NCBI GenBank assembly: GCA_020793565.1
Contig: DQIP01000230.1
Span: 1-48,074, forward strand
Source: Candidatus Methanovorans sp.
GTDB taxonomy: Archaea; Halobacteriota; Methanosarcinia; Methanosarcinales; Methanosarcinaceae
Length of the DNA: 48,074 nt
Direction: 5' to 3'
Shown: positions 8,169-37,369 of the stretch, in pieces
How the letters are laid out: the number at the start of each line of letters is the position of its first letter
Numbering within the stretch: position 1 is the first letter of the stretch
Position numbers and translations under genes: made by a program
The notes under the pieces: model-generated
What the model saw: only the letters and a program-made list of their open reading frames with translations
Databases searched by the model: none
Told to the model about the DNA's origin: nothing

Positions 8169-10324
8169 GTGCTGCCCCTTCCGTTTGGGGCAATCCTACT
8201 GAGGGATGCGTCAGCAGTAATGCTGGGGTGTAAAGTCCTCAGAACAATATGGAGAAATTTGATAGTCTAAATTAAACAATCTGTTAGGATAAGAACACCA
8301 CGGAGAAACGAAAGTTGAATCATTGTAAGAGTCGTTACTGGAAATAAGCGAAATGGACTGAAACGCTTACACCAAAAGGTACGGAATCAGACCATTATGG
8401 CTGGGATGACATTATGGGAAATGGACAAACGGTTCTCGGCTTACAGATGGCTCCTAAAGTGTTCACAATTATTTATGGTGTAGAACTTGGTAAGCCCTAT
8501 GTGCTCCCGAATTTTCGGGAAGAAACCTCGCAAGGGGCGACGATGGCACAGAGGGTATAGGAAATGGTAAAAAGCAAATGACAATTTGTAATGAGTTGTA
8601 TAGAGGTTCAAGATTTGCCTTAACTCGAAAGGGTGCTGACTTACCGAAGGTGTTTCATTGTATGAATGGAGGCAAACCATGAATGTGAGATACTCAACGA
8701 CACCGATAGGTGAGAGACTTACAGACACACGACGACAAATCCAATGGAAATATATCAATTGGAAAATAGTCAATGATAGTGTTAATCGGCTGCAAGTCAG
8801 GATTACAAAAGCAGTGAATAAAGAAAAGTGGCAACTGGTTAAAAGATTACAATATATGCTAACCCATTCGTTTTATGCGAAAATGTTGGCAATAAGGAGA
8901 GTAACTCAAAATAAGGGTACAAGAACAGCGGGAGTTGATGGCATAAGGTGGATAACACCTGAAGCCAAAATGAATGCTGCTCTTAATTTATCTGACAAGA
9001 AATACAAAGCCAAACCATTACGTAGAGTCTATATTGAGAAATATGGCAAGAAGGAAAAACGACCTTTAAGCATCCCAACCATGCACGACAGGGCAATGCA
9101 AGCATTATATGCATTTGCATTAAGCCCAGTCGCAGAAGCAACTGCTGACAGAACATCGTTTGGTTTCCGTAAAAACAGAAGCACACACGATGCATATGCA
9201 CAGGCCTTTAACTGTCTGAGCAAAAAGAATTCTGCTCAGTGGTTGCTGGAAGGCGATATTAAGGGCTGTTTCGACAACATCAACCACGAATGGTTACTGG
9301 ACAATATCCCAATGGATAAGTCAATACTCAAACAATTTCTCAAAGCAGGTTTTGTGTATAATCGACATCTAAATCCTAGTAAATCAGGGACTCCACAAGG
9401 AGGTATTATTTCGCCTATACTGGCAAATATGGCATTGGATGGAATTGAAGCATTGATTGCATCCAAATACTATACCAGTAAAAGCGGGAAAATATATAAG
9501 AGGTACGACCGCCACAAAGTTAATTTTGTACGGTATGCCGATGATTTTATCGTGACTACTGATACAGAAGATACTGCTAAGGAAATTGCTGAATTGATTA
9601 AATCATTCCTGAAGGAAAAAGGTCTGGAACTTTCAGAGACTAAAACTCTGATTACTCATATAGACACTGGTTTTGACTTTTTAGGTTGGAACTTCCGAAA
9701 ATACAAAGGGAAACTCCTGATTAAACCATCAAAGGATTCCATTGGTAAAATTACTCAGAAAATGAGTGATGTTATCAAACGTGGAAAAGCATGGAAACAG
9801 GAAGATATTATTTCCATTCTCAATCCTATCGTCACTGGCTGGTCGAATTATCATCAATCAGCGGTATCTAAAGATATATTCAGTAAATTAGATGATAGGT
9901 TATGGGGTATGCTCTGGAGATGGGCTAAAAGGAGACATCCTGAAAAGTCCAAATCGTGGATTGTTAAGAGATATTGGCATGAAGCGAGAGGGCGGAAATG
10001 GATATTTTCAACGAAGGAAAAGGAACTTAAACGTTTCTCTGATACTAAAATTGTCAGACATCCAAATGTTAAATTGGACAAAAACCCTTATCTTGATAAA
10101 GAATATTTCGATTTACGAAGATACAAAATCAGTCTTCGTAGAAAAACCAACAAATCTTTCAGTAAAACGATGATTGCATAAACATTGTAGTCAAAAAAAA
10201 ACCTAAATACCACAAAACTTAAAACTGCTGCCCGACAAGGGTTATGAAAGGCTTGAGCCGTATGCGGTGAAAGTCGCACGTACGGTTCTTAGAAGAGGGA
10301 GAGCGAGTAATCGCTCTTTCTTAT
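8169..10324 (+). mobile_element. Group II intron with intron-encoded protein
   Basis: Maturase/RT ORF plus domain V GAGCCGTATGCGGTGAAAGTCGCACGTACGGTTC at 10254-10287 followed by a domain VI-like hairpin ending ..TTAT; proposed 5' end GTGCT at 8169 is less certain. Confidence 0.8.
8658..10181 (+). CDS. ltrA: Group II intron reverse transcriptase/maturase
   Basis: RPLSIPTMHDRAMQALY, SFGFRKNRSTHDA, GDIKGCFDNI, GTPQGGIISPILANMALDGIE, FVRYADDFIV; maturase X-domain region. Confidence 0.96.
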   Translation: MYEWRQTMNVRYSTTPIGERLTDTRRQIQWKYINWKIVNDSVNRLQVRITKAVNKEKWQLVKRLQYMLTHSFYAKMLAIRRVTQNKGTRTAGVDGIRWITPEAKMNAALNLSDKKYKAKPLRRVYIEKYGKKEKRPLSIPTMHDRAMQALYAFALSPVAEATADRTSFGFRKNRSTHDAYAQAFNCLSKKNSAQWLLEGDIKGCFDNINHEWLLDNIPMDKSILKQFLKAGFVYNRHLNPSKSGTPQGGIISPILANMALDGIEALIASKYYTSKSGKIYKRYDRHKVNFVRYADDFIVTTDTEDTAKEIAELIKSFLKEKGLELSETKTLITHIDTGFDFLGWNFRKYKGKLLIKPSKDSIGKITQKMSDVIKRGKAWKQEDIISILNPIVTGWSNYHQSAVSKDIFSKLDDRLWGMLWRWAKRRHPEKSKSWIVKRYWHEARGRKWIFSTKEKELKRFSDTKIVRHPNVKLDKNPYLDKEYFDLRRYKISLRRKTNKSFSKTMIA

Positions 10325-10425
10325 TCGGCGTCCGAATTGATCATTTGAATTTACATCAATTCCAATTTTCCTCCATCCTGCAGACACTCTCGTTTCCTAT
10401 CTTGTTGCAGATTGTGGTAAATATA

Positions 10426-22390: not shown

Positions 22391-24144
22391 TCAGAGTATT
22401 CTCCTTCTTGAAAGCAGTATTATTAGAACTAAGAAGACCACTCCTAAAAATTCAAAACCGGGTATGGATTTTCCAGGGCTTGTTTGGATATTATCTGTGA
22501 CATTATTATCTGTGACATTATTATCTGGTATAATAACCTGGGATTGTGTAGTATCTACCTCCATGCCTGCAACTTTTACCAGCCAGATATCATGCCCTCC
22601 AGACCCATATGATTCCGAGGTTCCTGCAATTACATATCCACCATCTGATGTCTGCTGAACAAAACTGGCCACATCTCTCTTCAATCCCCCTATGGTCTTG
22701 CTCCACTCAAGATTGCCGTTGACATCAATTTTTAAGAGCCAGGCATCAAAATTACAATAATGTATCTGACCTTTAAAATCAGGATTCTTAGCTGTGTCGA
22801 TTGCACCTGCCATTACATATCCTCCATCTGAGGTCTGCACAACAGAATAAGCATAATCATGCCCATCCAATCCAAAAGTCTTGTTCCACTGCTCATTGCC
22901 ATTTGCATCGGTCTTCAAAAGCCAGGCATCACCTCCTGTCCCATATGACCTCGTCTCACCTGCGAGAATATAGCCACCATCCAACGTATTCTGGACAGAA
23001 TACGCAAAGTCGGAACCAGCTCCGCCAAATGTCCTGTTCCACTGTTCAGTTCCATTTTCATCGGTTTTTAAGAGCCAGGCATCTTCAGGATACGAGGCAT
23101 CTCCTGCCAGTATATATCCTCCATTCGGGATCTCCCGAACAGAAGATATTGTACCAGACCCGTTTAATATAAGGGTCTTACTCCACTGTTTAGTTCCATT
23201 TGCATCGGTCTTTAAGAGCCATGCATTACTTCCGGTCCTATGCGCCCCCGTCGTCATACCTGCAAGAATCAAGCCGCTATCAGAGGTCTGCTGAATTGAT
23301 TGAGCATTTCCAAGATCAAAAAAATATTGTTTAGGTAGATGATTTACATTCACATCAGTTTTGACTAGCACAGTAAAACTTTTTATAATCTTTTCAATGC
23401 TCACTAACATATAACCGCCATCATGAAGATGTAAAACGGAGGGGATAACCCTGAAATCTACAAAAGTCTTGTTCCATTGTTCATTGCCATTTACATCAAC
23501 TTTTATTATCAATGCATCATTCGAATACATTCCTTTACTATCTAGACGCTTAATAGTACCTACAAGAATATATCCGTCGTCTGAAGTCTGCTGAACAGAT
23601 CTCCCGGTGTCACCATATATTCCACCAAATGTTCGATTCCATTCTTCAGAAGGAAACTCAGTTGTTTTTGGATTTAGATTAGTAGAGACAAAATCTGGTT
23701 CAATAACAGTCGATCCGTCAGAATATTGATAAAAAGGTTTGAAGACGACTAGATTATTATGTCCGAGAAATATTCCATCGAACTTTGACTCAATAATTGT
23801 ATATTCTATTTTATCAATAGTTTTATTGTAATAAAAATAATTTCCTTCCTTTAGTTTCATGTTTTTTATAATTTTTTCATTCTTGTATAAAGTAAAGTCT
23901 GCTACAAAAGGATGTGAATACACCACATAATCCATTGATAATGAATATCCTTCTTTTAGTAATGTAGTACACGATATAGTTACTCCATATGAACTATCGT
24001 AGGGAATTATTATTCTAGAATCTAATATTAAATCTCCTACTGCTGCATTTGCTGGAATGGATGAAAATATTGAAAATAAAATACTTATTGTAAAAAAATA
24101 AGAAATCTCAACTTTTTTTCTTCCAAGATAGTATTATCATTCAT
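22391..24144 (-). CDS. Secreted beta-propeller-like repeat protein with C-terminal PGF-CTERM-type sorting tail; N-terminal signal peptide appears frameshifted
   Basis: Repeats WNRTFGGAGSDFAYSVQNTLDGGYILAGETRSYGTGGDAWLLKTDANG; C-term KSIPGFEFLGVVFLVLIILLSRRR; in-frame extension upstream of 23935 encodes ISILFSIFSSIPANA, but ATG at 24144 is in another frame. Confidence 0.82.
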
Positions 24145-25051: not shown

Positions 25052-26023
25052 TCATAAAAACAATGCCAGTGTAAATATTATCACAAGCATGATCGCGATT
25101 CTTATCGTAGTTGCTATTGCAAGTATCTGCAACCCGATCCTGGGACCAAATATTCCAACATAGTATGGTATCAGGAATTTCATTGCCATTGTAACACTCG
25201 ATAAAACATCACCAACAAGCAACGTCAAAATGATTTCTTTACTTGTGAGCACTCCGGTTGACAATAGGGTGCTGGCTGTCGAATGAGCTGCCATAAAATT
25301 TGCAAACTGTGCCACAATAATACTTAATCCTGCAGGTGGTATTGGAAAATATACACATACAAATGCCAGGTGGTCCGCAAGCACATCAAAAGCTCCTGCT
25401 GTTATCAGAACACATACAATAAAAAAAACAGGGATAGTCATACCCAGTATTCGCTTAAGGATACTTTTCGAGGATTGTAAACTAATCTTAAAAGCTTCTT
25501 TTATCCCCGGACGTATTTCTACCGGATGATTTACAGGCTCACAACTTGTTTTTTCCAGAAGGACCCTTCCTACCAGCATAATAAATAATGTCTTGATGAA
25601 TCCGATTAGCACCAGTATACAAAAGTAAATAATACCGGTCATACCCAGCAAAGGTATGAGCACTGGAAGCAGCGCACGCCAGTGCATTAAAATCGCCGGA
25701 AAAGATGTCATCATAGAAGCTATAAAAAGTTCCTTCTTCTCAATCAGTTTGTCATTGTGAAAAGAAGCAAGCATCGAATTGGCAGATGTCGGGGATATGA
25801 ATGCAGTCATGAAACTGGCTCCGCATTCATCTCTCAAATTGGCAAAATTCGAGATCGGCCTGGCAAGATATGCAACCTTATCCGTAACCTTCAAAGCAAT
25901 GATAAATTCTGCAAAAACCACACCGATTATCATAAACGGTACGGTTTTGCTGAGTAAACTAAACGATAGTCCTGCTGCACTGGTGAGTAATTGATAAATT
26001 CCGCTATATACCATCTGCATCAT
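25052..26023 (-). CDS. Nucleoside recognition (Gate) domain membrane protein
   Basis: Multi-TM with FMTAFISPTSANSMLASFHNDKLI; start overlaps CobN 3' end by 20 nt. Confidence 0.75.
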   Translation of the reverse strand: MMQMVYSGIYQLLTSAAGLSFSLLSKTVPFMIIGVVFAEFIIALKVTDKVAYLARPISNFANLRDECGASFMTAFISPTSANSMLASFHNDKLIEKKELFIASMMTSFPAILMHWRALLPVLIPLLGMTGIIYFCILVLIGFIKTLFIMLVGRVLLEKTSCEPVNHPVEIRPGIKEAFKISLQSSKSILKRILGMTIPVFFIVCVLITAGAFDVLADHLAFVCVYFPIPPAGLSIIVAQFANFMAAHSTASTLLSTGVLTSKEIILTLLVGDVLSSVTMAMKFLIPYYVGIFGPRIGLQILAIATTIRIAIMLVIIFTLALFL

Positions 26024-29000
26024 CTACAAAAGCAACTTTCTTCCATTTTTTCTCGATACCTGACATCTTAATATCCCATGATTCAACATCATCCCTGTTC
26101 AGGACTGTGATCTCGCCACCCTGAAAATCGCCGTCTATTACGCCAAGTTTTTCCTCCATAACACCTTCTATGTCAAGATAGGATTCCTTGAGTTTCTGTA
26201 GCGTTTCTTCATCAGGTTTCCAGAGTTCACGCTCCACTGCTTCTATCAGTCTTCGCGTCATTTCCTCAAGTGCATAAGGGTTGTTTTCCTCAAACCATTC
26301 CTTCATCTCTTCATCGAATACGAATGTCTCTGCGATGTCATCAAAAACCCATTTATCCACAAGTTTTGTTGTTGCGCTCCAGCCATATACGTGATCCACA
26401 CGTTTAGAGATATCGCCAGCACCCTTATATCCATGTCGTTTTTTACCATCGATCCATTTCGGATTGAGAAGCCTTGTTCGCACAACACGCTCGACCTCGT
26501 CCCCTACATCACGCACCACCGGGCGTTCAGGATCCCTGGTATCTCCAATATATGCTGTGACATCCTTACCGGAAATATGCTTTGCAGCAATCGTAAAACC
26601 GCCATGAAATCCAAAGTTACAGCAGCAATCAAGAATGTCAAGCTCGTCTGAGTCTTTTTTGTGGTAGGTAACATCAACTGACTTCAACAGGTCTGCAAAC
26701 TCTGCATGATTTTCTTCTCCAAATGTGCCCTTTCCATAAGAATATCCACTCCAGCCGATGAAAACATCTGCAAGGTCAGCGTCTTCCTTCCATGCAGATG
26801 CAAAGATCGCAAGAGTTACACCTATGCCATATGTACCCGGTTTTGCGCCGAAAACGCGGTACGTTGCAAGACGCTGTGCAGTCTCAGCATCATGATCACC
26901 AAGCAGCCGCCTCATCTTTTCAAGGGTATGTTTTCGCACGTAATTCATCTCATCGGGTTCATCAAGAACTGCGATCTTCTGCGCAGCATCATCGATCAGT
27001 TCCATAATATTCGGGCAGGCATCCCGCAGGACCCCGCCAACCCTGACTGTACAGTCGATCCGTGCCCGTCCAAGTTCTTCGAGTGGAATAACCTCTACAC
27101 TTTTTACTGTACCGTTTTCCTGCCATACCGGACGTGCTCCCATAAGATACAGGATCTGGGCAGCTTCCTCCCCGTCTGCACGGAAGATATCTGCGCTCCA
27201 GAGAACAAAACCGATATTTTCAGGGTACTTCCCTTCCGCCTCCATATAACTTTCCAATAAAACGCCGGCAAGTTTCATTCCGATATTCCATGCCGCCCGG
27301 GTTGGAATTTTCGTAGTGTCAATTGCATACATATTCCTTCCTGTCGGAAGGACATCGACCTTGCCGCGGGTCAAAGCACCACATGGTCCGGATTCAATAT
27401 AATTTGATTCAAACCCACGGAGAAGGTTGTTTATTTCATCTTCAGTCCCGTGAACGATTTTAGGGATGAGCGACATCCCAAACCTGACGACTTTGACCAA
27501 TATATCCCGTTTATCCCGATCAGCAATATCTTTGATGGATCTGCTGCAAATGTCAAGGATCACACCATCATCTAATTCATCATCAAGTTCAATACCCTTT
27601 TCAACATTATTTTCAACATCTTTTTCCATTTCCGATATAATCTCCCCCATGATCCTGACAGCCGTATCAGTGCTCTCATCCAGCAGTTCCCCGTTCGTCT
27701 TTCCTGATGTATTGAGCACGGTTGGGTTTTCGATCACATTCTCATACGAGAAGCCCATGCATTCCAGTATGCATCTTCTTATAGACGGATATGTACCAAC
27801 ATCGAACCTGAGTATCGAAACCAGCATGTTCGCAAGGTCCCTGCCAGTTGGCGCATTACCCAGTATATGCATTCCGTCCCTGATCTGGGTCTCCCGCAGC
27901 AGTGTTAACTGGCCGTGCAGGTCATCTACAACCCTGTCTCGTTCATCTTCTTCATGATGAGCCGGCGTTTGGTCATCCTTGATAAGATTCACTTCTTTTG
28001 CCTTATCAACTACCAGATGGAATATCGAGTGAAGCCTTGTATTATCATTGGTGACCTTTGCCTTCCCATATTCAGAAAGCAGGTCGCCCAGGTCTTCAAG
28101 TCCTTCATACAGTCCGGACGGTGCCATCACAGGAAGCAGGTGATCGACCATGGTAGCATATCCCCGGCGCTTGGCTATTGTTGATTCCATGGGGTTAATA
28201 ATATTATAGATATACAGGTGAGGTATGGTTCCAATTGAAAGCTGTGGATAGCATTCTGTTGATAAGCCAACTACTTTTCCGGGCAGGAACTCAAGCAGTC
28301 CATGTGTGCCAACATGTACGATCGCATCTGCCCCGAATTCATACTCGATCCATTTGTAAACAGCAAGCCATTGATGTGGCGGAGGACAGAGCGGGTCGTG
28401 GAGGATCTTGCAGACCTCCCCGTCACATTTTGCACCAGCGCAGCCTCTCTTTGGCTGGATCGTTATGAAAATATTCCCGAACCTGAGCCCGGGTATTACG
28501 ATGTTATCACCGTACAATCCCATACTGAGCTTTGCCCATTCCATATCTTTTAGATCGGATTCGGAGGATGTTGCTTTGCTTTTGTCAGAAAGATCGGATC
28601 GCGGGTCGCCCCACGTCTCGATGAGTTCTTGCTGAATACGATCCGGAAATCCGGAGAACCATTCGAGATATTTTTCACGGGGCAGCATGGTCGATCCGCC
28701 TTTCTGTACGATCTCGGACAGTGGGGTCCACCTGAATTCACTTATTGCTTTTTTTTCAAGGATCTCGTGGATCAGGTCATCTCCGCTCTCCGGAATATTA
28801 TCTCCAAGATCATAACCCTCATCTCTCATCCTGTGAAGGAGGCGAACGACACTCTCCAGTGAATCCAGTCCAAGTGCTGTCCCTATGGTGGCTTCCACGC
28901 CTTTGCATGGTGAATTGAGTAAAACGAGTGCAACCTTGCGCTCTGAATTTGGCATGTCCTTTAAATGAAGCCATTTTGCACATCTGGAAACCATGAATTC

Positions 29001-30032
29001 AACCTGCTCGGTTACAGGTACGTGTTTGTTGTACACTCCACCAACTGTTGGCTCATCTACTTTCTCCACCGCTCCGGTGATCGTAGGCTCGATCATTCCA
29101 TCGAACTCCGGCATTGCGATGTTCACCACAATCCCGGATGGATGAAGTCCGTCTTTACTCTCTCTCCATTCTTCTTCAGTTCTGTAGTAAGATGTTACTG
29201 CCTGAATGACCGGCACATTCAGTTGCTTTAGTATCTCAACACCATCTGTGGAATGTTCACTCCATCCTTTTATCGCCCTCGGGATCAGGAAGAACATCTG
29301 GAAGTTAACAAGAATATCAATTGCGGTTTTATTATCTTTGGTAAAATACCTATTCAGGATAACATCATTACCTTCGATTCCGGCATCTGTATTCTCGAAT
29401 CCGTGAGAGAAAACAGGGACCACATTGATGCCTTTTTGTTCAAACTCCCTGATAACCGCATCGTATACTGAAGTATTGCCTTCGAGCCATCCGCTACGCT
29501 GGAACAGGAGACCTGCGGTGTGTTCCCCTTTTTTCGGATACCATTTAAAATAATCATCAGGAGATTCGAATATAGCGGGAGCGTCCGGATGGTATATTCC
29601 ATGCCATGGCAACTCCTGTGGCGGTGACAATTCTGCTGTGGTTTTGCCACAGTAGTTTGATATAAAAAGTAAAAGATTCTCCATGTTTGCAGCACCGCCG
29701 TACGTGTAGTACTGCTGTGCCGATGCCAGTACATCGGCTGGAACATTGCTCAGTTGTGGCTCACTTCCGATGGAGAATACGGGTACAGTTACCTGTGCAA
29801 CAGTCTCTTTGATGGTTTCAAAACTCTCATCGCTCGCATTGATGTATAAAAATATCGCATCAGCCTCATTTTTGAACCAGTCCCAGAACGCATCATCGAT
29901 TTCAGTTGCCTGAAACCTCGCCTGTACCTCGATCGGGTATCCCTGTTCGTTCAACTCCCCTGTTACACTGCCAAGCAACTGGAGTACTCCTCCGGTATAT
30001 CCGGTTACAAATCCTATTTTTGTTGTTTTCAT
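26004..30032 (-). CDS. cobN: CobN-type cobaltochelatase large subunit
   Basis: 1342 aa; KVALVLLNSPCKGVEATIGTALGLDSLES, VHVGTHGLLEFLPGKVVGLS, CYPQLSIGTIPHLYIYNIINPMESTIAKRRGYATMVDHLLPVM. Confidence 0.95.
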   Translation of the reverse strand: MKTTKIGFVTGYTGGVLQLLGSVTGELNEQGYPIEVQARFQATEIDDAFWDWFKNEADAIFLYINASDESFETIKETVAQVTVPVFSIGSEPQLSNVPADVLASAQQYYTYGGAANMENLLLFISNYCGKTTAELSPPQELPWHGIYHPDAPAIFESPDDYFKWYPKKGEHTAGLLFQRSGWLEGNTSVYDAVIREFEQKGINVVPVFSHGFENTDAGIEGNDVILNRYFTKDNKTAIDILVNFQMFFLIPRAIKGWSEHSTDGVEILKQLNVPVIQAVTSYYRTEEEWRESKDGLHPSGIVVNIAMPEFDGMIEPTITGAVEKVDEPTVGGVYNKHVPVTEQVEFMVSRCAKWLHLKDMPNSERKVALVLLNSPCKGVEATIGTALGLDSLESVVRLLHRMRDEGYDLGDNIPESGDDLIHEILEKKAISEFRWTPLSEIVQKGGSTMLPREKYLEWFSGFPDRIQQELIETWGDPRSDLSDKSKATSSESDLKDMEWAKLSMGLYGDNIVIPGLRFGNIFITIQPKRGCAGAKCDGEVCKILHDPLCPPPHQWLAVYKWIEYEFGADAIVHVGTHGLLEFLPGKVVGLSTECYPQLSIGTIPHLYIYNIINPMESTIAKRRGYATMVDHLLPVMAPSGLYEGLEDLGDLLSEYGKAKVTNDNTRLHSIFHLVVDKAKEVNLIKDDQTPAHHEEDERDRVVDDLHGQLTLLRETQIRDGMHILGNAPTGRDLANMLVSILRFDVGTYPSIRRCILECMGFSYENVIENPTVLNTSGKTNGELLDESTDTAVRIMGEIISEMEKDVENNVEKGIELDDELDDGVILDICSRSIKDIADRDKRDILVKVVRFGMSLIPKIVHGTEDEINNLLRGFESNYIESGPCGALTRGKVDVLPTGRNMYAIDTTKIPTRAAWNIGMKLAGVLLESYMEAEGKYPENIGFVLWSADIFRADGEEAAQILYLMGARPVWQENGTVKSVEVIPLEELGRARIDCTVRVGGVLRDACPNIMELIDDAAQKIAVLDEPDEMNYVRKHTLEKMRRLLGDHDAETAQRLATYRVFGAKPGTYGIGVTLAIFASAWKEDADLADVFIGWSGYSYGKGTFGEENHAEFADLLKSVDVTYHKKDSDELDILDCCCNFGFHGGFTIAAKHISGKDVTAYIGDTRDPERPVVRDVGDEVERVVRTRLLNPKWIDGKKRHGYKGAGDISKRVDHVYGWSATTKLVDKWVFDDIAETFVFDEEMKEWFEENNPYALEEMTRRLIEAVERELWKPDEETLQKLKESYLDIEGVMEEKLGVIDGDFQGGEITVLNRDDVESWDIKMSGIEKKWKKVAFVDDADGI

Positions 30033-30136
30033 TTAAATGCTCCTAAAACCAAAAACCGGGCGAACACACCCTGTGAATTTTGTGTTGTGCATCATCCGTA
30101 TTTGTTTGTTACTGTGTTTCTACTGCTGTTATGTTG

Positions 30137-31402
30137 TTACGTTCCATCCGGGTGCTCATCCGGATAATACACGAATACGCCGTGCTCGTCCAGATCATAA
30201 TCCACTCCCATGAAATCGGTCATAAATTCCTGATGTATCTCCTTCGGATCTAAATCAAAGTAATCAGGGTGAATACATTTTGTCCAATGCGCAATACCTA
30301 TGGGGTAATCAAGCCCGTAATGAAGGTTAGCATCTACCACGTAAACCCTTCCTTCCTTCACTGCAGCGATTCCGGCAAATCCGGGGCGGCTCATGATTTC
30401 ATCTCTTAGTTCCTTCATTTTTGAGGAATTATCTACATCATATCCGGAATCTGCATATGCACCCTTTATAATAACATCAGGATTTCTCACCACAATCGCT
30501 TCGGGATCGACGACAGGAATGCCTTTTAGATCTGAGAATATATTTGTTCCACCAGCTAGACCGATCGATTGGTGTGCACCTGTTGTATAACCATAAGTTT
30601 TGTAAGGCTTATTACACTCTACGTAAACTTTTGGTTTCGCTTCATCTGACAAAACTTCGGTCTTTGCTTTGATGTAATCAATGTATTTATCGTGGAAATC
30701 ATCAATGTAATAACTCGCTTCCTTATTTTTACCAAAGATATAACCAAGCTTTGTTACTTCTTCGACCAAAATATGTGGTTTGGAAAATGATAGGTCAACT
30801 ACAGTAATACAATTCGGAAGCGTCTCATCAAGTTCTAAAATTGTTGGAGACCACCATGTGATCAGCAGATCCGGATAAAGGCTGATTATTGCTTCAAGGT
30901 CTGGATTTTTTGCCATACCGAGTGATGGTAATTTACTGAGATCCGGAAGATATGTGTTCTCTGTAATCGGATTGGAAATCCCAACGATTTTATCTTGATC
31001 TCCAAATATCTGTATTGCTTCAACACAATATTTGCTGAGTAGAATAACACGGTTTACCGGTTTTTTCACCGTCACGATCCTATCTGCAGTATCGATAAGG
31101 GTTAACTCATTTTCACTTCCGAGTATAATGAGTTCGATCTGTGTCAGGTCAAGGATGTCAATCTTACCGTCATACTTTGCATCTGCAAATTGTGTCTGCC
31201 CTTTGTCATTGAGGATGATCAGTTCGGTAGATTTCACATCCTGAACGTCTATGGTATCATCTTCGTTCGCATTACCAAAGATGCCGAGCGTGTAGTCGGA
31301 TGCTGCGGCTGGCAGCGTGCAGCAAAGCAGCAGCATGATCGCAATTCCGACCAGTATTCCTGCCTTCATAAAGTTAACCTCGTTTTTATTTATCCCCATC
31401 AA
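30137..31402 (-). CDS. Dockerin-domain plus BtuF/FhuD-type ABC substrate-binding protein (paralogue 1)
   Basis: Signal peptide ..LPAAASDYTLG; dockerin NANEDDTIDVQD and DAKYDGKIDILD; DRIVTVKKPVNRVILLSKYCVEAIQIFG periplasmic-binding fold. Confidence 0.88.
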   Translation of the reverse strand: MMGINKNEVNFMKAGILVGIAIMLLLCCTLPAAASDYTLGIFGNANEDDTIDVQDVKSTELIILNDKGQTQFADAKYDGKIDILDLTQIELIILGSENELTLIDTADRIVTVKKPVNRVILLSKYCVEAIQIFGDQDKIVGISNPITENTYLPDLSKLPSLGMAKNPDLEAIISLYPDLLITWWSPTILELDETLPNCITVVDLSFSKPHILVEEVTKLGYIFGKNKEASYYIDDFHDKYIDYIKAKTEVLSDEAKPKVYVECNKPYKTYGYTTGAHQSIGLAGGTNIFSDLKGIPVVDPEAIVVRNPDVIIKGAYADSGYDVDNSSKMKELRDEIMSRPGFAGIAAVKEGRVYVVDANLHYGLDYPIGIAHWTKCIHPDYFDLDPKEIHQEFMTDFMGVDYDLDEHGVFVYYPDEHPDGT

Positions 31403-32685
31403 ATCTCCTTCAGTGGCGGATAGGCAAACATCAGTTCCTCCGGATATTGCACACCCATGAACTGTTCAAGATATTCCCTGTAAATGTTTTCAGGATCAAT
31501 ATCAAGTTCAGGATGGAACCACTTAGTCATGTAAGCAATTGCAGACATGTCATCACATCCCCAGGAGATCTCGGAGCTGATCACGTAAAACCGGTTATTC
31601 TTCACCGCAGTTATCCCATCCCATCCAGGGCGGTTTCCGACAACATCGCTTATCAATCCAATCGATTCTTCTGTGTCATTCCAACCCCAGTTATCACCTA
31701 AACTTACATATTTGATAATTACATCCGGGTTCTCATTCAGAATCCATTCATAATCCACTTTCGGGTATTGTGGCAGTTCGCCGCATATATTTCTTCCACC
31801 TGCTACATTGCAAAGAGTATCACCACTACTGCCTCCACCATATGTGCTGGCCGGTTCCTTTGATCCCCATTCCATGAAAACCAGTGGTTTATCGTCCTCT
31901 GGCAGACTGCTGACAAAATTATTTATCTGGTCTTCATACCCTTCCCGCCAATCGATGTATGTAGCTGCTTCATCCCTTTTATCAAGGACATATCCAAGTT
32001 TTCGGACTTCCGATTTCACAAGGTCAGTCCTGTAAAAATCAAGTCCGATCACTGTAATACCGGCAGGCTTGAGTTTTTCCTCGAGTTCAACAATTCGCTT
32101 GCTATTCGCTGAAGTGATAACAATATCCGGTGTAAGACTGATAATTGCTTCATGGTCAGGTTTCATCCAGGATCCTACCTGGGGTAGATCTAACAATTCC
32201 GAAAAATAATGAGGACTTGATTTTAAAGCACTGTCAATTCCAACGATTTTATCACTTGCCCCAATGATCTTTACGCCTTCTGTACGGTAATTACCAAGAG
32301 CGATCACTCTTTCCACCGGCGTGTTCACTGTTACGATTCTGTCCAATGAATCTTTTAGTGTTAATTGATTCTCCTTTTCGAGTATGATCAGTTCAACTTG
32401 TATAACATCAAGGATGTCGATTTTGTCATCATACCTGGCATCTGCAAGTTCTGTTTTGCCTTTGTCATTGAGTATTATCAGTTCGGTATATTTTACATCA
32501 TGCACGTCTATTGTATCATCTTCGTTCGCATTTCCAAAAATTCCAAGTGTGTAGTCAGATGCTGCGGCTGGCAGTGTACAACAAAGTAGTAGCATTATGG
32601 TTATTCCAATCGATACAAATGTTTTCATAATCATCACCTTATTTTTATTAATTTTCATAAACTTTCCAGCGGCGGATATGCCCAC
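31399..32685 (-). CDS. Dockerin-domain plus BtuF/FhuD-type substrate-binding protein (paralogue 2)
   Basis: NANEDDTIDVHD and DARYDDKIDILD calcium-loop motifs; DRIVTVNTPVERVIALGNYRTEGVKIIG. Confidence 0.88.
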   Translation of the reverse strand: MGISAAGKFMKINKNKVMIMKTFVSIGITIMLLLCCTLPAAASDYTLGIFGNANEDDTIDVHDVKYTELIILNDKGKTELADARYDDKIDILDVIQVELIILEKENQLTLKDSLDRIVTVNTPVERVIALGNYRTEGVKIIGASDKIVGIDSALKSSPHYFSELLDLPQVGSWMKPDHEAIISLTPDIVITSANSKRIVELEEKLKPAGITVIGLDFYRTDLVKSEVRKLGYVLDKRDEAATYIDWREGYEDQINNFVSSLPEDDKPLVFMEWGSKEPASTYGGGSSGDTLCNVAGGRNICGELPQYPKVDYEWILNENPDVIIKYVSLGDNWGWNDTEESIGLISDVVGNRPGWDGITAVKNNRFYVISSEISWGCDDMSAIAYMTKWFHPELDIDPENIYREYLEQFMGVQYPEELMFAYPPLKEI

Positions 32686-33908
32686 ACGCCATCATACCCA
32701 ATACCGAGGTATCTTTCGAACCATTCTGCATGGATCGCTTCGGGGTTAATATCCCCAAACAATTCAGGATGCAAACACTTGGCAAAATATGAATGAAATA
32801 CGGATGCATGCGTTGATGATGCCGCCGTGCTGATGAGATACACACGTCCGTTCTTGACAGCATCAAGATGATTCCAACCGGGACGGTTCATAGTATCCGC
32901 TCTCAACTCCCCCATTGAACTGGTATTAGTCACACCATATCCCGAAGGAACCATTCCCTCGTGAATAGTTCTGATAATCACCTGTGGATTTTTCTCGATT
33001 GCAGCCTCAGGGTCAATATAAATCGTACCTGTCACATCTTCGAAGATGTTGATACCACCACAGGGAATGAGAACATCATCATGTAGATAACCACCGGAAC
33101 CGCAAGTTCGATAATCCAGGTAACTTTCCAAATACACACGTGGCTTTTGTTCATCTGTCAAACCCCGGATTCGATCTTCTATGAGACCAAGGTGCTCATC
33201 CTCAAAGTCGATAAGTTCATTAGCCCTTTCTCTCCTGTTCAGCAGGTATCCCATTGTCATAACTGCGTTGTGATGTGTTTTTGCCTTGTGAAAATCAATT
33301 GGAACCAATTTTATACCCGCGGCATTTAGTGTCGCCTCAAGATTCTCGGAATGAAGCTGGTAGTAACATGCATAAGAATGTACGATCTGTGGTTTTAGTT
33401 CCAGGATCTTTTCCACGTCAGGCGTTTTGGAACCACCAACCCCTGGTATATCTTCCAGGAAACTGTTGAGATGCGGAGCGTTCTCCTTTGCATAATCGGC
33501 AACCCCCACAAGTCCGTCTTGCACGCCAAAAGCGCAGAACGTTTCAGGACCATAACTCCCGGCAATGCTAATCACACGTTCCAGGGGCATATCGATCGTA
33601 ACGACTCTCTCAACATCATCTATGATCGTAAGTTCTTTCTCCATTCCAAATATGATCAACTCGGTCTGCGTCATGTCAAGGATGTTGATTTTGTCATCAT
33701 ACTCCGCATCTGCAAGTTGTGTTTGATTATTAAGTCCAAGAACAATGCGTTCAGTGTATTCTACATCCTGCAAATCTATGGTACCATCCTCGTTCGCATT
33801 TCCAAAAACGCCAAGTGTGTAATCTGATGCCGCTGCTGGCAGCGTACAGCAAAGCAGCAGCATAATTGGTGTTATTCCAGCCAGTATCCATATTTTCATA
33901 CAGACCAA
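32655..33908 (-). CDS. Dockerin-domain plus BtuF/FhuD-type substrate-binding protein (paralogue 3)
   Basis: NANEDGTIDLQD and DAEYDDKINILD motifs; ERVVTIDMPLERVISIAGSYGPETFCAFG. Confidence 0.88.
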   Translation of the reverse strand: MVCMKIWILAGITPIMLLLCCTLPAAASDYTLGVFGNANEDGTIDLQDVEYTERIVLGLNNQTQLADAEYDDKINILDMTQTELIIFGMEKELTIIDDVERVVTIDMPLERVISIAGSYGPETFCAFGVQDGLVGVADYAKENAPHLNSFLEDIPGVGGSKTPDVEKILELKPQIVHSYACYYQLHSENLEATLNAAGIKLVPIDFHKAKTHHNAVMTMGYLLNRRERANELIDFEDEHLGLIEDRIRGLTDEQKPRVYLESYLDYRTCGSGGYLHDDVLIPCGGINIFEDVTGTIYIDPEAAIEKNPQVIIRTIHEGMVPSGYGVTNTSSMGELRADTMNRPGWNHLDAVKNGRVYLISTAASSTHASVFHSYFAKCLHPELFGDINPEAIHAEWFERYLGIGYDGVWAYPPLESL

Positions 33909-33933
33909 AACCTTTTATTCATCATCATCAATT

Positions 33934-35256
33934 CTACGCCAGTGCCGGGTATACATAAATACCCTGATATGGCACTCCCTGGTATTTTTCAAGATATTCC
34001 TCATGCTTCGCCTGTGTATCAAAATCAGCGAAGATTTCGGGATGGAACCATTTCGTTAAGTATGCAACACCTACAAAGTACCTTGGCTTGGTCGTGACCT
34101 GAATTGAAATGCAGTAAACCCTGTTTTCCTTCACTGCTGTGACCCCGGCCAGTTCAGGGCGATTCATGATACTCTCTCTCACCGCTTTCAATCCGGATGG
34201 ATCATCATGTTCATAACCGCAACCCATACCAGTGAACACTTGCGCAACGATAACATCCGGGTCCTGTGTAATCACCCATTCGGCATCGATTGTTTTATAG
34301 TCATCAAAATCAGCGATGTTTTCCCCGCCTGCCATTGTAACTGTTTTATCTGTCCCTGTATTCTTGCCAATCGCCTTGTATTTGCTTTCAGGGTTCCATA
34401 TAGACTCAATATATACTCCAGGTTTCTCATTATCTGGCAGTTTCCCCACCTGCTCGTTGATGTTGTTGTCAAACTCCCTGTAAAAATCAGCAATCTCTCC
34501 GGCCTCGTCCCTCTTACCAAGGATATACCCGAGCTTTGCAAAGTCTTCGATCATGCGGTCAGCCCGTGTGAAATCCAGGTGAACTACAGTAATACTTTCA
34601 GGAAGACGTTCCTCAAATTCTTCTGGTTTTGGTAATGTGGCGTATGCAAGAACCATGTCTGGCTCAAGCTCGATCACACTCTCGATGTCAGGTTTGAATC
34701 CACTTCCAATCGTTGGTAGATTAACGAGTTCCGTGAAAAAACCGGCATGGTCCGTGACGAAATAAGTGGGAACGCCAACGATCCGATCTGTGGATCTTAG
34801 CGATCGCACCGCCTCGGTAGCATAGGTACTGAGAACGATCATACGTTCTACTGGCTTTTTGATCGTTATGGGCTTTCCATTGGGATCATTCCCTGTAACA
34901 TAATCATCCAGAAACGTAAGTTCCTTCTCCTGCCCCAGCATGATCAGCTCGATCTGCGTCCAGTCAAGGATATTGATCTCACCGTCATACTTCGCGTCTG
35001 CAAGTTGTGTTTGGTCATTAAGTCCCAGAACAATGTGTTCAGTGTATTCCACATCCTGCATGTCTATGGTGTCATCTTCGTTCGCGTTACCGAATATACC
35101 AAGCGTGTAGTCTGATGCTGCGGCTGGTACACAGGTCAGTAAAAGCACAGTTGTGACCAGTCCGAGCGAGAAGAATCTCCCTCCGGTCGAATTAACTCGC
35201 ACGATATACTTATAAAATATATGCAGTAAGAAACTATTACCTGGCATGTAACACAA
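33934..35256 (-). CDS. Dockerin-domain plus BtuF/FhuD-type substrate-binding protein (paralogue 4)
   Basis: NANEDDTIDMQD and DAKYDGEINILD motifs; KPITIKKPVERMIVLSTYATEAVRSL. Confidence 0.88.
   Translation of the reverse strand: MCYMPGNSFLLHIFYKYIVRVNSTGGRFFSLGLVTTVLLLTCVPAAASDYTLGIFGNANEDDTIDMQDVEYTEHIVLGLNDQTQLADAKYDGEINILDWTQIELIMLGQEKELTFLDDYVTGNDPNGKPITIKKPVERMIVLSTYATEAVRSLRSTDRIVGVPTYFVTDHAGFFTELVNLPTIGSGFKPDIESVIELEPDMVLAYATLPKPEEFEERLPESITVVHLDFTRADRMIEDFAKLGYILGKRDEAGEIADFYREFDNNINEQVGKLPDNEKPGVYIESIWNPESKYKAIGKNTGTDKTVTMAGGENIADFDDYKTIDAEWVITQDPDVIVAQVFTGMGCGYEHDDPSGLKAVRESIMNRPELAGVTAVKENRVYCISIQVTTKPRYFVGVAYLTKWFHPEIFADFDTQAKHEEYLEKYQGVPYQGIYVYPALA
35166..35226 (+). repeat. Diverged 62-bp repeat family member inside the paralogue-4 ORF
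   Basis: GCGAGAAGAATCTCCCTCCGGTCGAATTAACTCGCACGATATACTTATAAAATATATGC. Confidence 0.7.
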
Positions 35257-35258
35257 CT

Positions 35259-35840
35259 CTATGATTTCCTACTGGACCGAACCATACAGAAAACTGCGAC
35301 TAAACCCACAAGAGCAAACACTGCCCCAAATCCTGGTGTGGATTTATGTGCACCTGTTGCAGCAGTAACTCCCCAGTCCGCATTTATCTTGTTAGCCTGT
35401 GTGTTAACAAGTAATTCATTGGAAATGCCTATGGTACTGTCTCCGGGTCCTACCACTTCAAAATCGATTTTAGCTAACTGTCCTGATCCACTTATTCCGG
35501 TAACACCTTCCAGATTGAAGATCACCCTGATCATACCGGTCTCTATTGAGTTCCACTGCACGGGTATTTCGGTCCCCTGAATGTCTCCATTCCCAACATC
35601 GACAACTTTCAGGACACTTGAATTAAAAGACAGGTCAAACTGTCCTGCGTCAAGGTTACTAATGTTATTTATTTCTACTGTAGCATAACAGGTAGTTCCT
35701 TCTACCCATTCGGGCGCGATTATACTGACTGCTGGCTGCTGCGCCTGGGCGGGAAGCACCGCAAATACCATAAGAGCCGCAGCAAAACAGATGCCGGTTA
35801 TGAAATTTCTTTTCCAGTTCACATGTTTATTTTTGTTCAT
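35259..35840 (-). CDS. Cohesin-domain surface protein with C-terminal PGF-CTERM-like anchor
   Basis: Signal peptide; ATVEINNISNLDAGQFDLSFNSSVLKVVDVGNGDIQG...MIRVIFNLEGVTGISGSGQLAKIDFEVVG cohesin-like; STPGFGAVFALVGLVAVFCMVRSSRKS tail. Confidence 0.85.
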   Translation of the reverse strand: MNKNKHVNWKRNFITGICFAAALMVFAVLPAQAQQPAVSIIAPEWVEGTTCYATVEINNISNLDAGQFDLSFNSSVLKVVDVGNGDIQGTEIPVQWNSIETGMIRVIFNLEGVTGISGSGQLAKIDFEVVGPGDSTIGISNELLVNTQANKINADWGVTAATGAHKSTPGFGAVFALVGLVAVFCMVRSSRKS

Positions 35841-35987
35841 TCAATCACTTTTTATATCTTTCCATATAGTTCATATTTTTTATAGGTGTTTGCCAGATTT
35901 ACGGCACTTGAATTTCATCAAGGATTGCCAAAAAATAAGGGTGGAAGCATTCAAACTCCCGTTTGGCCAATTTAGTGTTGTTTGTAT

Positions 35988-37190
35988 TTATGCCATACTG
36001 CCTTCATACAACGTGAAGGTTACAGTCTCTAAACTACTGAAACCGTCAGCACTGCTGAATTCAATTGGTACTGTAGCAACAACCCTGCCTGTATCGGGAT
36101 CGAACCTGGCCCAGTTGACATATATGTACACATAAGCAGTCTTGATATCACCTGCATTAAAATCACCAACCGGATAAGTGTTGCTTATAAGGTATGCGTC
36201 CTGTGCATCAGAATTGCTTGCATGTTTGCTATTGAAAAGGGTCGAGGCGGTCACCCATGGTGTTTCCGTACCATCAACAGTGACTTTGCGAGCATGTTTT
36301 TCCTTGCCTTCTGCTGTGATGATCTTCCCAGTGAACATGAACACACCGTTATCACCGCTATAATAGCTTCCAAGATCTGTTTGGCGGTCTGGATATGTTA
36401 CAGTATCAAGATTTGATACATTGTAGATTCCGTTGTCGTTTTCTGCTGAGCCAAGATCGTAGTCTACAGGTACGGTGACAGTCATGAAATCACTGAGATT
36501 GAGAGTCGGTTTGCTACCATCGAATTTATAGGCATACCCTGCATCATCGAATGTTATAGCATCAGAGTTCGGAAGCAACTCTCCTACGAATTTCTTCCAT
36601 GAACTCGAAGTACTATCATAATACTGGAGTGCATAACCATTGCTGCGATCCAGATGTATACAGTATGGGCTGAAACCTAAATTTGGCATACTGCCACCGG
36701 CATAATAACTTTCTGTAACTTTCCTATTATCAAGGTCTACCTTAATTTTAACATCATGCAATTTGGCATTTGCTTTGAACTGAATTGGTATTTCGAGGAC
36801 AAAACGTTCATCTTCATATACCGTTGTATTTGAATCGTTATATGAAATACCTGTATAATACGGAGACGACGATGTATACCCTGTGTACGATATTAAACCC
36901 TTCTCGTCATACCCATCTTTTTTGTCATAGGTTGCACTTACATATGGAACATTCTGTGTTGTTTCTATCGTCACAACCATAGGTATAGTACTTGATTTCA
37001 AGACATCGAATTGCAAATCTGTGGAATTGCCTACCTGTTCCTGCGCACTTTCCTGAAACGTGTCGAACCAGAAATACAATCCAACACCGGCAGCCACAGC
37101 CACAGATAATACTAAAATGGTGGCAATGATCGGGCTTATGGCCTTTGTATTATTCCACAGTTTATTTTTTTCAATTTCAAACATTTTCAT
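35988..37190 (-). CDS. Large type IV pilin-like protein (archaeal pilin N-terminal domain)
   Basis: NNTKAISPIIATILVLSVAVAAGVGLYFWFDTFQESAQEQVG N-terminus followed by about 350 aa exodomain. Confidence 0.85.
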   Translation of the reverse strand: MKMFEIEKNKLWNNTKAISPIIATILVLSVAVAAGVGLYFWFDTFQESAQEQVGNSTDLQFDVLKSSTIPMVVTIETTQNVPYVSATYDKKDGYDEKGLISYTGYTSSSPYYTGISYNDSNTTVYEDERFVLEIPIQFKANAKLHDVKIKVDLDNRKVTESYYAGGSMPNLGFSPYCIHLDRSNGYALQYYDSTSSSWKKFVGELLPNSDAITFDDAGYAYKFDGSKPTLNLSDFMTVTVPVDYDLGSAENDNGIYNVSNLDTVTYPDRQTDLGSYYSGDNGVFMFTGKIITAEGKEKHARKVTVDGTETPWVTASTLFNSKHASNSDAQDAYLISNTYPVGDFNAGDIKTAYVYIYVNWARFDPDTGRVVATVPIEFSSADGFSSLETVTFTLYEGSMA

Positions 37191-37369
37191 GCCTTTCCGT
37201 TGTTCTAAATTTATGATCACTAACGGTACATGGGTAATAATTGATACTATTTAAGGCCTATGATTTAAGTTATTTTTACTATATTTTTAGTAAAAGATGC
37301 TACGATTTCTAATCATCGTATCATTACGGATAAAAAAATGGGTAGTCGTAACTCGAATGAAATTACGAG

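Follow-up and report, generated by a model that had tools for sequence, protein, structure and literature searches.

The role of archaeal cohesins and dockerins outside cellulosomes is an open question to which the usual answer is adhesion, and a locus of Candidatus Methanovorans sp. raises it in a specific form: what does a cohesin with a membrane tail do beside genes for four substrate-binding proteins (SBPs) that each carry a dockerin? The locus lies in a 48,074-nt stretch of contig DQIP01000230.1 (C204; hereafter the window, to whose positions the coordinates below refer), and the genome searched comprises 2,450,789 bases in 236 contigs. On the minus strand, a cohesin protein with a PGF-CTERM tail, four dockerin-SBPs that each begin with a signal peptide, a CobN-family protein and a Gate-domain membrane protein are encoded in that order; by their open reading frame (ORF) coordinates the gaps between the genes are short or negative, and the ORF of SBP 1 starts 2 bases past the cohesin stop codon. 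All ORFs, positions and the order given in a preliminary description of this DNA were confirmed. We interpret the cluster as the receptor system of an ATP-binding cassette (ABC) importer anchored in trans, in which the cohesin would be a one-place membrane socket for interchangeable metal-chelate receptors, and assign this reading a probability of about 0.72. Trans anchoring draws its support from fold searches, from paralogous loci in this genome and orthologous ones in relatives, from a survey of receptor anchors and from co-variation; gene order, missing self-anchors and co-variation point to a specific job, that of holding ABC-transporter receptors at the membrane. The features of the locus, all on the minus strand, are as follows.

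35259..35840: cohesin anchor protein, 193 amino acids, with signal peptide, one cohesin module, short linker and PGF-CTERM/transmembrane (TM) tail (PF00963, 6.5e-10; PF18204, 3.3e-6)
35421..35699: cohesin module (PF00963 match in the genome profile search)
35280..35339: PGF-CTERM sorting signal, residues 168-187 (PF18204 and TIGR04126, both above cutoff)
33934..35256: SBP 1, signal peptide, dockerin and Peripla_BP_2 domain, likely start ATG at 35247 (PF01497, 3.4e-27)
34933..35112: dockerin of SBP 1 (15.5 bits; family profile; helices 18-28 and 48-58 in the AlphaFold model)
32655..33908: SBP 2, with N-terminal dockerin (PF01497, 2.5e-20)
33645..33824: dockerin of SBP 2 (profile search and loop sequences)
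31399..32685: SBP 3, with N-terminal dockerin (PF01497, 1.3e-26)
32377..32556: dockerin of SBP 3 (not matched by Pfam; family profile score 110 bits)
30137..31402: SBP 4, with N-terminal dockerin (PF01497, 6e-23)
31118..31297: dockerin of SBP 4 (profile search and loop sequences)
26004..30032: CobN-family large chelatase subunit (PF02514, 1298 bits; NF004646 above cutoff)
25052..26023: Gate-domain membrane protein, overlapping the CobN gene by 20 bp (PF07670, 4.3e-6, slightly under cutoff)
35988-37220: pilin with a genuine type IV pilin N-terminus (sequence profiles), 147 bp upstream of the cohesin gene

The pilin had been described as a component of the cluster. It lies 147 bp away and is absent from the paralogous loci, and is therefore not part of the unit.

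Cohesin and dockerin modules

The cohesin protein matches PF00963 above cutoff, its AlphaFold model (predicted local distance difference test, pLDDT, 77) has a cohesin fold, and all 50 Foldseek matches listed for it are cohesins, the first being 2XDH of Archaeoglobus fulgidus. Its tail, previously termed PGF-CTERM-like, likewise scores above cutoff, and archaeosortase A is encoded at two loci of the genome (TIGR04125, 272 bits); motif and enzyme together make the protein a candidate archaeosortase A substrate. About 20 residues link cohesin module and tail, and neither the window cohesin nor its paralogs contain a dockerin or more than one cohesin module. One module on a short linker should therefore give one receptor per anchor, at the membrane.

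The preliminary description had envisaged a surface scaffold, with the cohesin gathering several SBPs into an array on the outer face of the cell. Multi-cohesin proteins do adjoin dockerin-SBPs in genomes of ANME-1 and ANME-2c-like archaea (ANME, anaerobic methanotrophic archaea; four cohesins and six dockerin-SBPs at L103, and also L092 and L095), and the main text of Chadwick et al. (2022; PMC9012536) describes scaffoldin-like proteins in ANME-1, 2a and 2c, but the single module of the window cohesin and its paralogs, and a linker that sets these cohesins at the membrane, make such an array quite unlikely here. What stands of that proposal is an anchored cohesin that would hold SBPs for nutrient uptake and not as an enzyme complex, as folds, loci, anchors and co-variation suggest. 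Apart from a common ribosome-binding site, the regions upstream of the cohesin genes share no convincing operator; on contigs C160 and C200 (L044, L045) these regions are nearly identical over 240 bp, indicating a recent duplication.

On the receptor side, every copy of the N-terminal module has two EF-like loops, and in the AlphaFold model of SBP 1 (pLDDT 92) the helix after each loop is placed with high confidence. A family profile built from twelve copies and run against 177,635 PDB sequences gave six matches up to an E value of 10, all of them dockerins (E 0.03-1.1), with 2CCL/1OHZ nearest. Loop 1 is canonical (N-A-N-E-D-x-x-I-D/N-x-x-D). On the strength of loops, profile matches and model we regard the modules as dockerins. 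Another type occurs in the same genome: at about 29-54 kb of C171, genes for large cohesin and dockerin proteins are densely clustered, and the dockerins there are canonical and above the Pfam cutoff.

Receptor anchors, pairing and recurrence of the unit

A survey of non-redundant complete receptors, using an automatic rule for a lipobox or C-terminal TM segment, found an own anchor in 0 of 60 dockerin receptors, as the preliminary description had proposed for the window SBPs, compared with 23 of 36 receptors without a dockerin or EF-like module (Fisher 2.7e-13); the rule was adjusted between three versions of the survey, and the contrast was strong in each. The remaining 13 of the 36, read by eye and post hoc, comprise three OppA proteins with an AGC lipobox missed by the automatic rule, three SBPs with an uncleaved N-terminal TM segment and seven with an EF-hand-like N-terminal module. 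The OppA proteins of this genome have a lipobox where the dockerin is missing and none where it is present. LLTC matches to a lipobox in the dockerin-SBPs were rejected as they fall inside the hydrophobic stretch and are followed by a signal-peptidase I site. SBPs with a one-loop EF-hand-like N-terminal module and no anchor of their own were also seen (L228, L229, L174, L179, L190-L194). Several of them belong to cassettes of four SBP genes with a Gate gene at the end, and no cohesin neighbour was seen; this module is possibly a degenerate or different type of dockerin.

The dockerins vary less than the receptors that carry them, and they co-vary with the cohesins. In 13 complete SBPs the dockerins share 69% mean identity against 32% for the receptor parts, and the dockerin value is the higher in 78 of 78 pairs. 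Three genomes contain both SBP-side and Opp-side cohesins, and in these the SBP-side cohesins are 57-85% identical to SBP-side cohesins of other genera versus 40-45% to the Opp-side cohesin of their own genome. Dockerins track cohesin similarity (Mantel r 0.79), and the loop 2 pair is [IVM][LF] in 16 of 17 window-type pairs versus 1 of 6 pairs of the type found on C205 (Fisher 0.001), with the P values indicative only as the samples are related by descent and the statistics carry no phylogeny correction. On the alignment, the two positions compared would be the known specificity pair of the C. thermocellum dockerin, S45/T46, which is mutated in 2CCL.

The arrangement recurs within the genome. 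A cohesin gene directly followed by a dockerin-SBP gene occurs at four loci (the window, C160, C200 and C217), and two further small cohesins are cut at contig ends. Fourteen of the 15 Peripla_BP_2 proteins carry this dockerin; the only one without, on C171, has a PGF-CTERM-like tail of its own. Three full FecCD permeases were found. On C160 two SBPs flank FecCD permease and ATPase genes, C184 encodes a partial dockerin-SBP, ChlID, CobN, FecCD, an ATPase and a Gate protein, and on C205 a cohesin gene overlaps the gene for a dockerin-bearing NikA-like protein, followed by OppBCDF, a full ABC importer.

A scan with the cohesin alignment located 65 loci in relatives, and of 200 genomes sampled across the class, 31 encode a cohesin of this kind at 1e-10. 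The unit was found in ANME-1, ANME-2, Ethanoperedens, Argoarchaeum and cultured Methanosarcina, so the neighbourhood whose lack of conservation had been named as grounds for abandoning the idea recurs both in its own genome and beyond it. The order is cohesin, dockerin-SBP, ChlID, CobN, FecCD and ATPase in Argoarchaeum, and cohesin, dockerin-SBP, CobN and Gate in one ANME-1 genome. In Methanosarcina, cultured strains included, it is cohesin, dockerin-SBP, Gate at some loci, then FecCD and ATPase; at L062, the one examined closely, genes for a DUF4198 protein and a methyltransferase stand between the dockerin-SBP and the downstream importer genes. Methyltransferases and DUF4198 proteins recur in or beside receptor loci (L046, L049, L062), perhaps for modification of a chelator or cofactor. 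Since the unit is present in cultured Methanosarcina it is testable by genetics, which is not possible in ANME.

These neighbourhoods also bear on adhesion, in which large cohesin proteins at the cell surface would display dockerin-SBPs for contact between cells or as part of a matrix. Such a role has been suggested in the ANME literature (PMC5244752, PMC10553843) and the genome does encode large cohesin and dockerin proteins, but here each dockerin is part of an ABC receptor, and permease and ATPase genes follow the unit at other loci, also in free-living Methanosarcina, making adhesion a very improbable function of these dockerins.

Several observations weigh against trans anchoring of metal-chelate receptors. 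None of the window modules reaches the curated PF00404 cutoff of 22.9 bits (14.0-15.2 bits for three, no match for the fourth), so that the N-terminal two-loop dockerins of the preliminary description hold by loops, PDB profile matches and model but not by Pfam score. The third position of loop 2, usually a Ca2+ ligand, is occupied by Lys, Glu or Arg, so that this loop may bind Ca2+ weakly. In the 13 dockerin-SBPs the same codon is used at 56% of shared fourfold residues in the dockerin versus 32% in the SBP part; conservation of the dockerin is thus partly synonymous, and recombination between paralogs therefore contributes to it. Exceptions to the co-variation are L061, Argoarchaeum L082 and Ethanoperedens L073, where an Opp-like cohesin is paired with an SBP, and the SBP-side cohesins of Ethanoperedens and Argoarchaeum are of the C205 type. 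The window cluster itself contains no permease gene. Finally, the basic triad of the metal-chelate receptor YiuA (Arg64, Arg165, Arg223) is not kept in the four SBPs; the aligned residues are mostly Tyr, Thr/His/Tyr/Ser and non-basic, with R/K one past position 165.

Under trans anchoring, the cohesin protein would be exported and stay fixed in the membrane through its PGF-CTERM tail, while the four SBPs would be exported and released by signal peptidase. Each anchorless SBP would then plug its N-terminal dockerin into a cohesin, a pairing predicted from sequence, and the anchor would hold one SBP at a time beside the membrane, within reach of the importer. The dockerin tether would thus stand in for the lipid tail that such receptors normally carry. 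The paralogous receptors, 14 in this genome, would compete for shared sockets and few permeases. If true, this would be modular receptor swapping on a shared importer, and would bear on nickel, cobalt and iron acquisition by methane-oxidising archaea. A rather doubtful extension is that cohesin-dockerin pairs are a general exchangeable-receptor technology of Methanosarcinales and ANME, with one socket type per importer class (YiuA-like and NikA-like SBPs), many receptors sharing very few permeases, receptor choice by socket competition, and delivery to a cytosolic chelatase acting on metal-tetrapyrroles.

Cargo, CobN and the Gate protein

By profile and fold the receptor domain is Peripla_BP_2 (cluster A-2), with PF01497 matches in all four SBPs (2.5e-20 to 3.4e-27) as had been anticipated, and among solved structures its fold comes closest to YiuA in complex with iron and a catecholate fragment, FepB-like proteins, MolA and heme SBPs. 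The YiuA triad was rejected as proof of siderophore binding, as it is not conserved. Fold and profile suggest a cargo that is likely a metal chelate or oxyanion, most likely a chelated transition metal of siderophore, nickel or other metal-chelate type. Corrinoids, which the preliminary description had named beside metal chelates, are possible and not favoured; in that reading CobN would work on the corrin. The adjoining CobN gene and the dependence of ANME on cobamides (PMC10553843) would suit them, as would weak scores of the SBPs with the BtuF equivalog model; these scores are 26-44 bits against the NF002894 cutoff of 234 bits, however, and the best BtuF candidate of the genome, at 120 bits, is the dockerin-free, PGF-CTERM-type SBP on C171. 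As the nearest folds are siderophore and metal-chelate SBPs, and as archaea are thought to insert cobalt early and without CobN, the function of archaeal CobN being called unclear (PMC12583661), we consider corrinoid capture unlikely.

The window CobN is a full-length family member by NF004646 (1578.7 bits versus a cutoff of 1468), which does not imply cobalt insertion, the activity given for CobN in the preliminary description. It has neither signal peptide nor TM-like segment and is therefore cytosolic. Its relatives adjoin ChlID and importer genes (FecCD, Opp), and in relatives the Gate gene is again found next to genes for SBPs, CobN and FecCD, among them four-SBP cassettes of two related genomes. 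After uptake, CobN would probably act by moving metal into or out of a tetrapyrrole, and the Gate protein would probably move metal or another small solute across the membrane; these two steps are the weakest of the proposed mechanism.

A variant has CobN as a cytosolic de-chelatase that strips imported metal-tetrapyrroles, after which the Gate protein would move either the metal or the ring. In its favour, HmuS, another member of the superfamily, can take iron out of heme under anaerobic conditions (PMC12583661); in a methanogen, a protein with the annotation CobN1 reaches a high level only under nickel limitation (PMC12350162); and CobN genes adjoin those for FecCD and Opp importers. The window CobN, however, lacks the features of HmuS (no Met-rich insertion, with at most 4 Met per 60 residues, and no TM-like segment), is closer to CobN and ChlH (584 and 554 bits in the PDB comparison) than to HmuS (368 bits), and belongs to clusters that often include the ChlID ATPase used for metal insertion. 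De-chelation is thus a tentative proposal, on balance doubtful.

Other CobN forms were encountered. A surface-type CobN of 1493 amino acids with a signal-like N-terminus and C-terminal TM segment is encoded at L154:3306-9511 (C160:39305-45510), directly after DUF2162, MotA/ExbB and DUF2149 genes, and the same set occurs in L222, L224 and L227. Complete hmu operons are said to be lacking in archaea (PMC12583661); the C160 set resembles the hmuTUV-hmuS arrangement of Bacteroidota, with DUF2162 and DUF2149 as putative HmuT and HmuV counterparts by analogy. At L103:15-15218 (Methanophagales) a surface CobN with a C-terminal TM segment lies upstream of the four-cohesin protein and six tandem dockerin-SBPs, and large membrane-anchored CobN paralogs of 1400-2400 amino acids, several in tandem, occur in Methanosarcinales genomes (L219-L221). 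In the ORF at L095:5419-6021, a signal peptide with a truncated dockerin runs directly into the end portion of a CobN; this fusion of dockerin-SBP and CobN genes probably arose by deletion or by a join in the assembly.

Elsewhere in the window, the ORF at 22391-23935, downstream of the cluster, encodes a surface protein that contains delta-60/SBBP-like repeats and ends in a TM-like tail, and a group II intron (8173-10329; RF02012 and RF00029 above cutoff) surrounds an ORF (8658-10181); an Rfam scan of the window found nothing else.

Comparison with known systems

Dockerin-tagged SBPs of ANME are already known. According to the main text of Chadwick et al. (2022; PMC9012536), dockerin-bearing ANME proteins are commonly SBPs, including ABC-transporter SBPs of NikA/OppA and TroA types, multi-cohesin proteins occur in some clades, and the present genome was very probably part of that study. 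That main text does not mention a paired single-cohesin PGF-CTERM anchor, the order of genes in the operon, receptors that lack a self-anchor, co-variation or an occurrence in cultured Methanosarcina. The literature searched, with few subscription journals and no supplements, describes neither a single-cohesin PGF-CTERM partner as the anchor, nor the lack of self-anchors, nor the presence of the unit in Methanosarcina; the paired anchors and cultured hosts thus appear to be new.

The modules are homologous to the cohesins and dockerins of the bacterial cellulosome, the dockerin profile being nearest to 2CCL/1OHZ (C. thermocellum type I), but the window has one cohesin per protein on a single-cohesin anchor, its cargo is Peripla_BP_2 receptors, and no scaffoldin, carbohydrate-binding module or glycoside hydrolase is encoded in the cluster; it is not a cellulosome. 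The non-cellulosomal cohesin 2XDH of A. fulgidus is the best structural match of the window cohesin, which has a PGF-CTERM tail and SBP genes as neighbours; the comparison with 2XDH was one of structure. YiuA and other cluster A-2 metal-chelate SBPs provide the closest solved folds of the receptor domain, but YiuA has no dockerin and its Arg triad is not shared. Among the HmuS/CobN/ChlH class I chelatases, the window CobN is a full-length superfamily member without HmuS-specific features. The PGF-CTERM-anchored SBPs of TIGR04281 resemble the window system in receptor domain and share its sorting signal, but they carry the tail on the SBP itself, whereas in the window it is carried by a separate cohesin protein.

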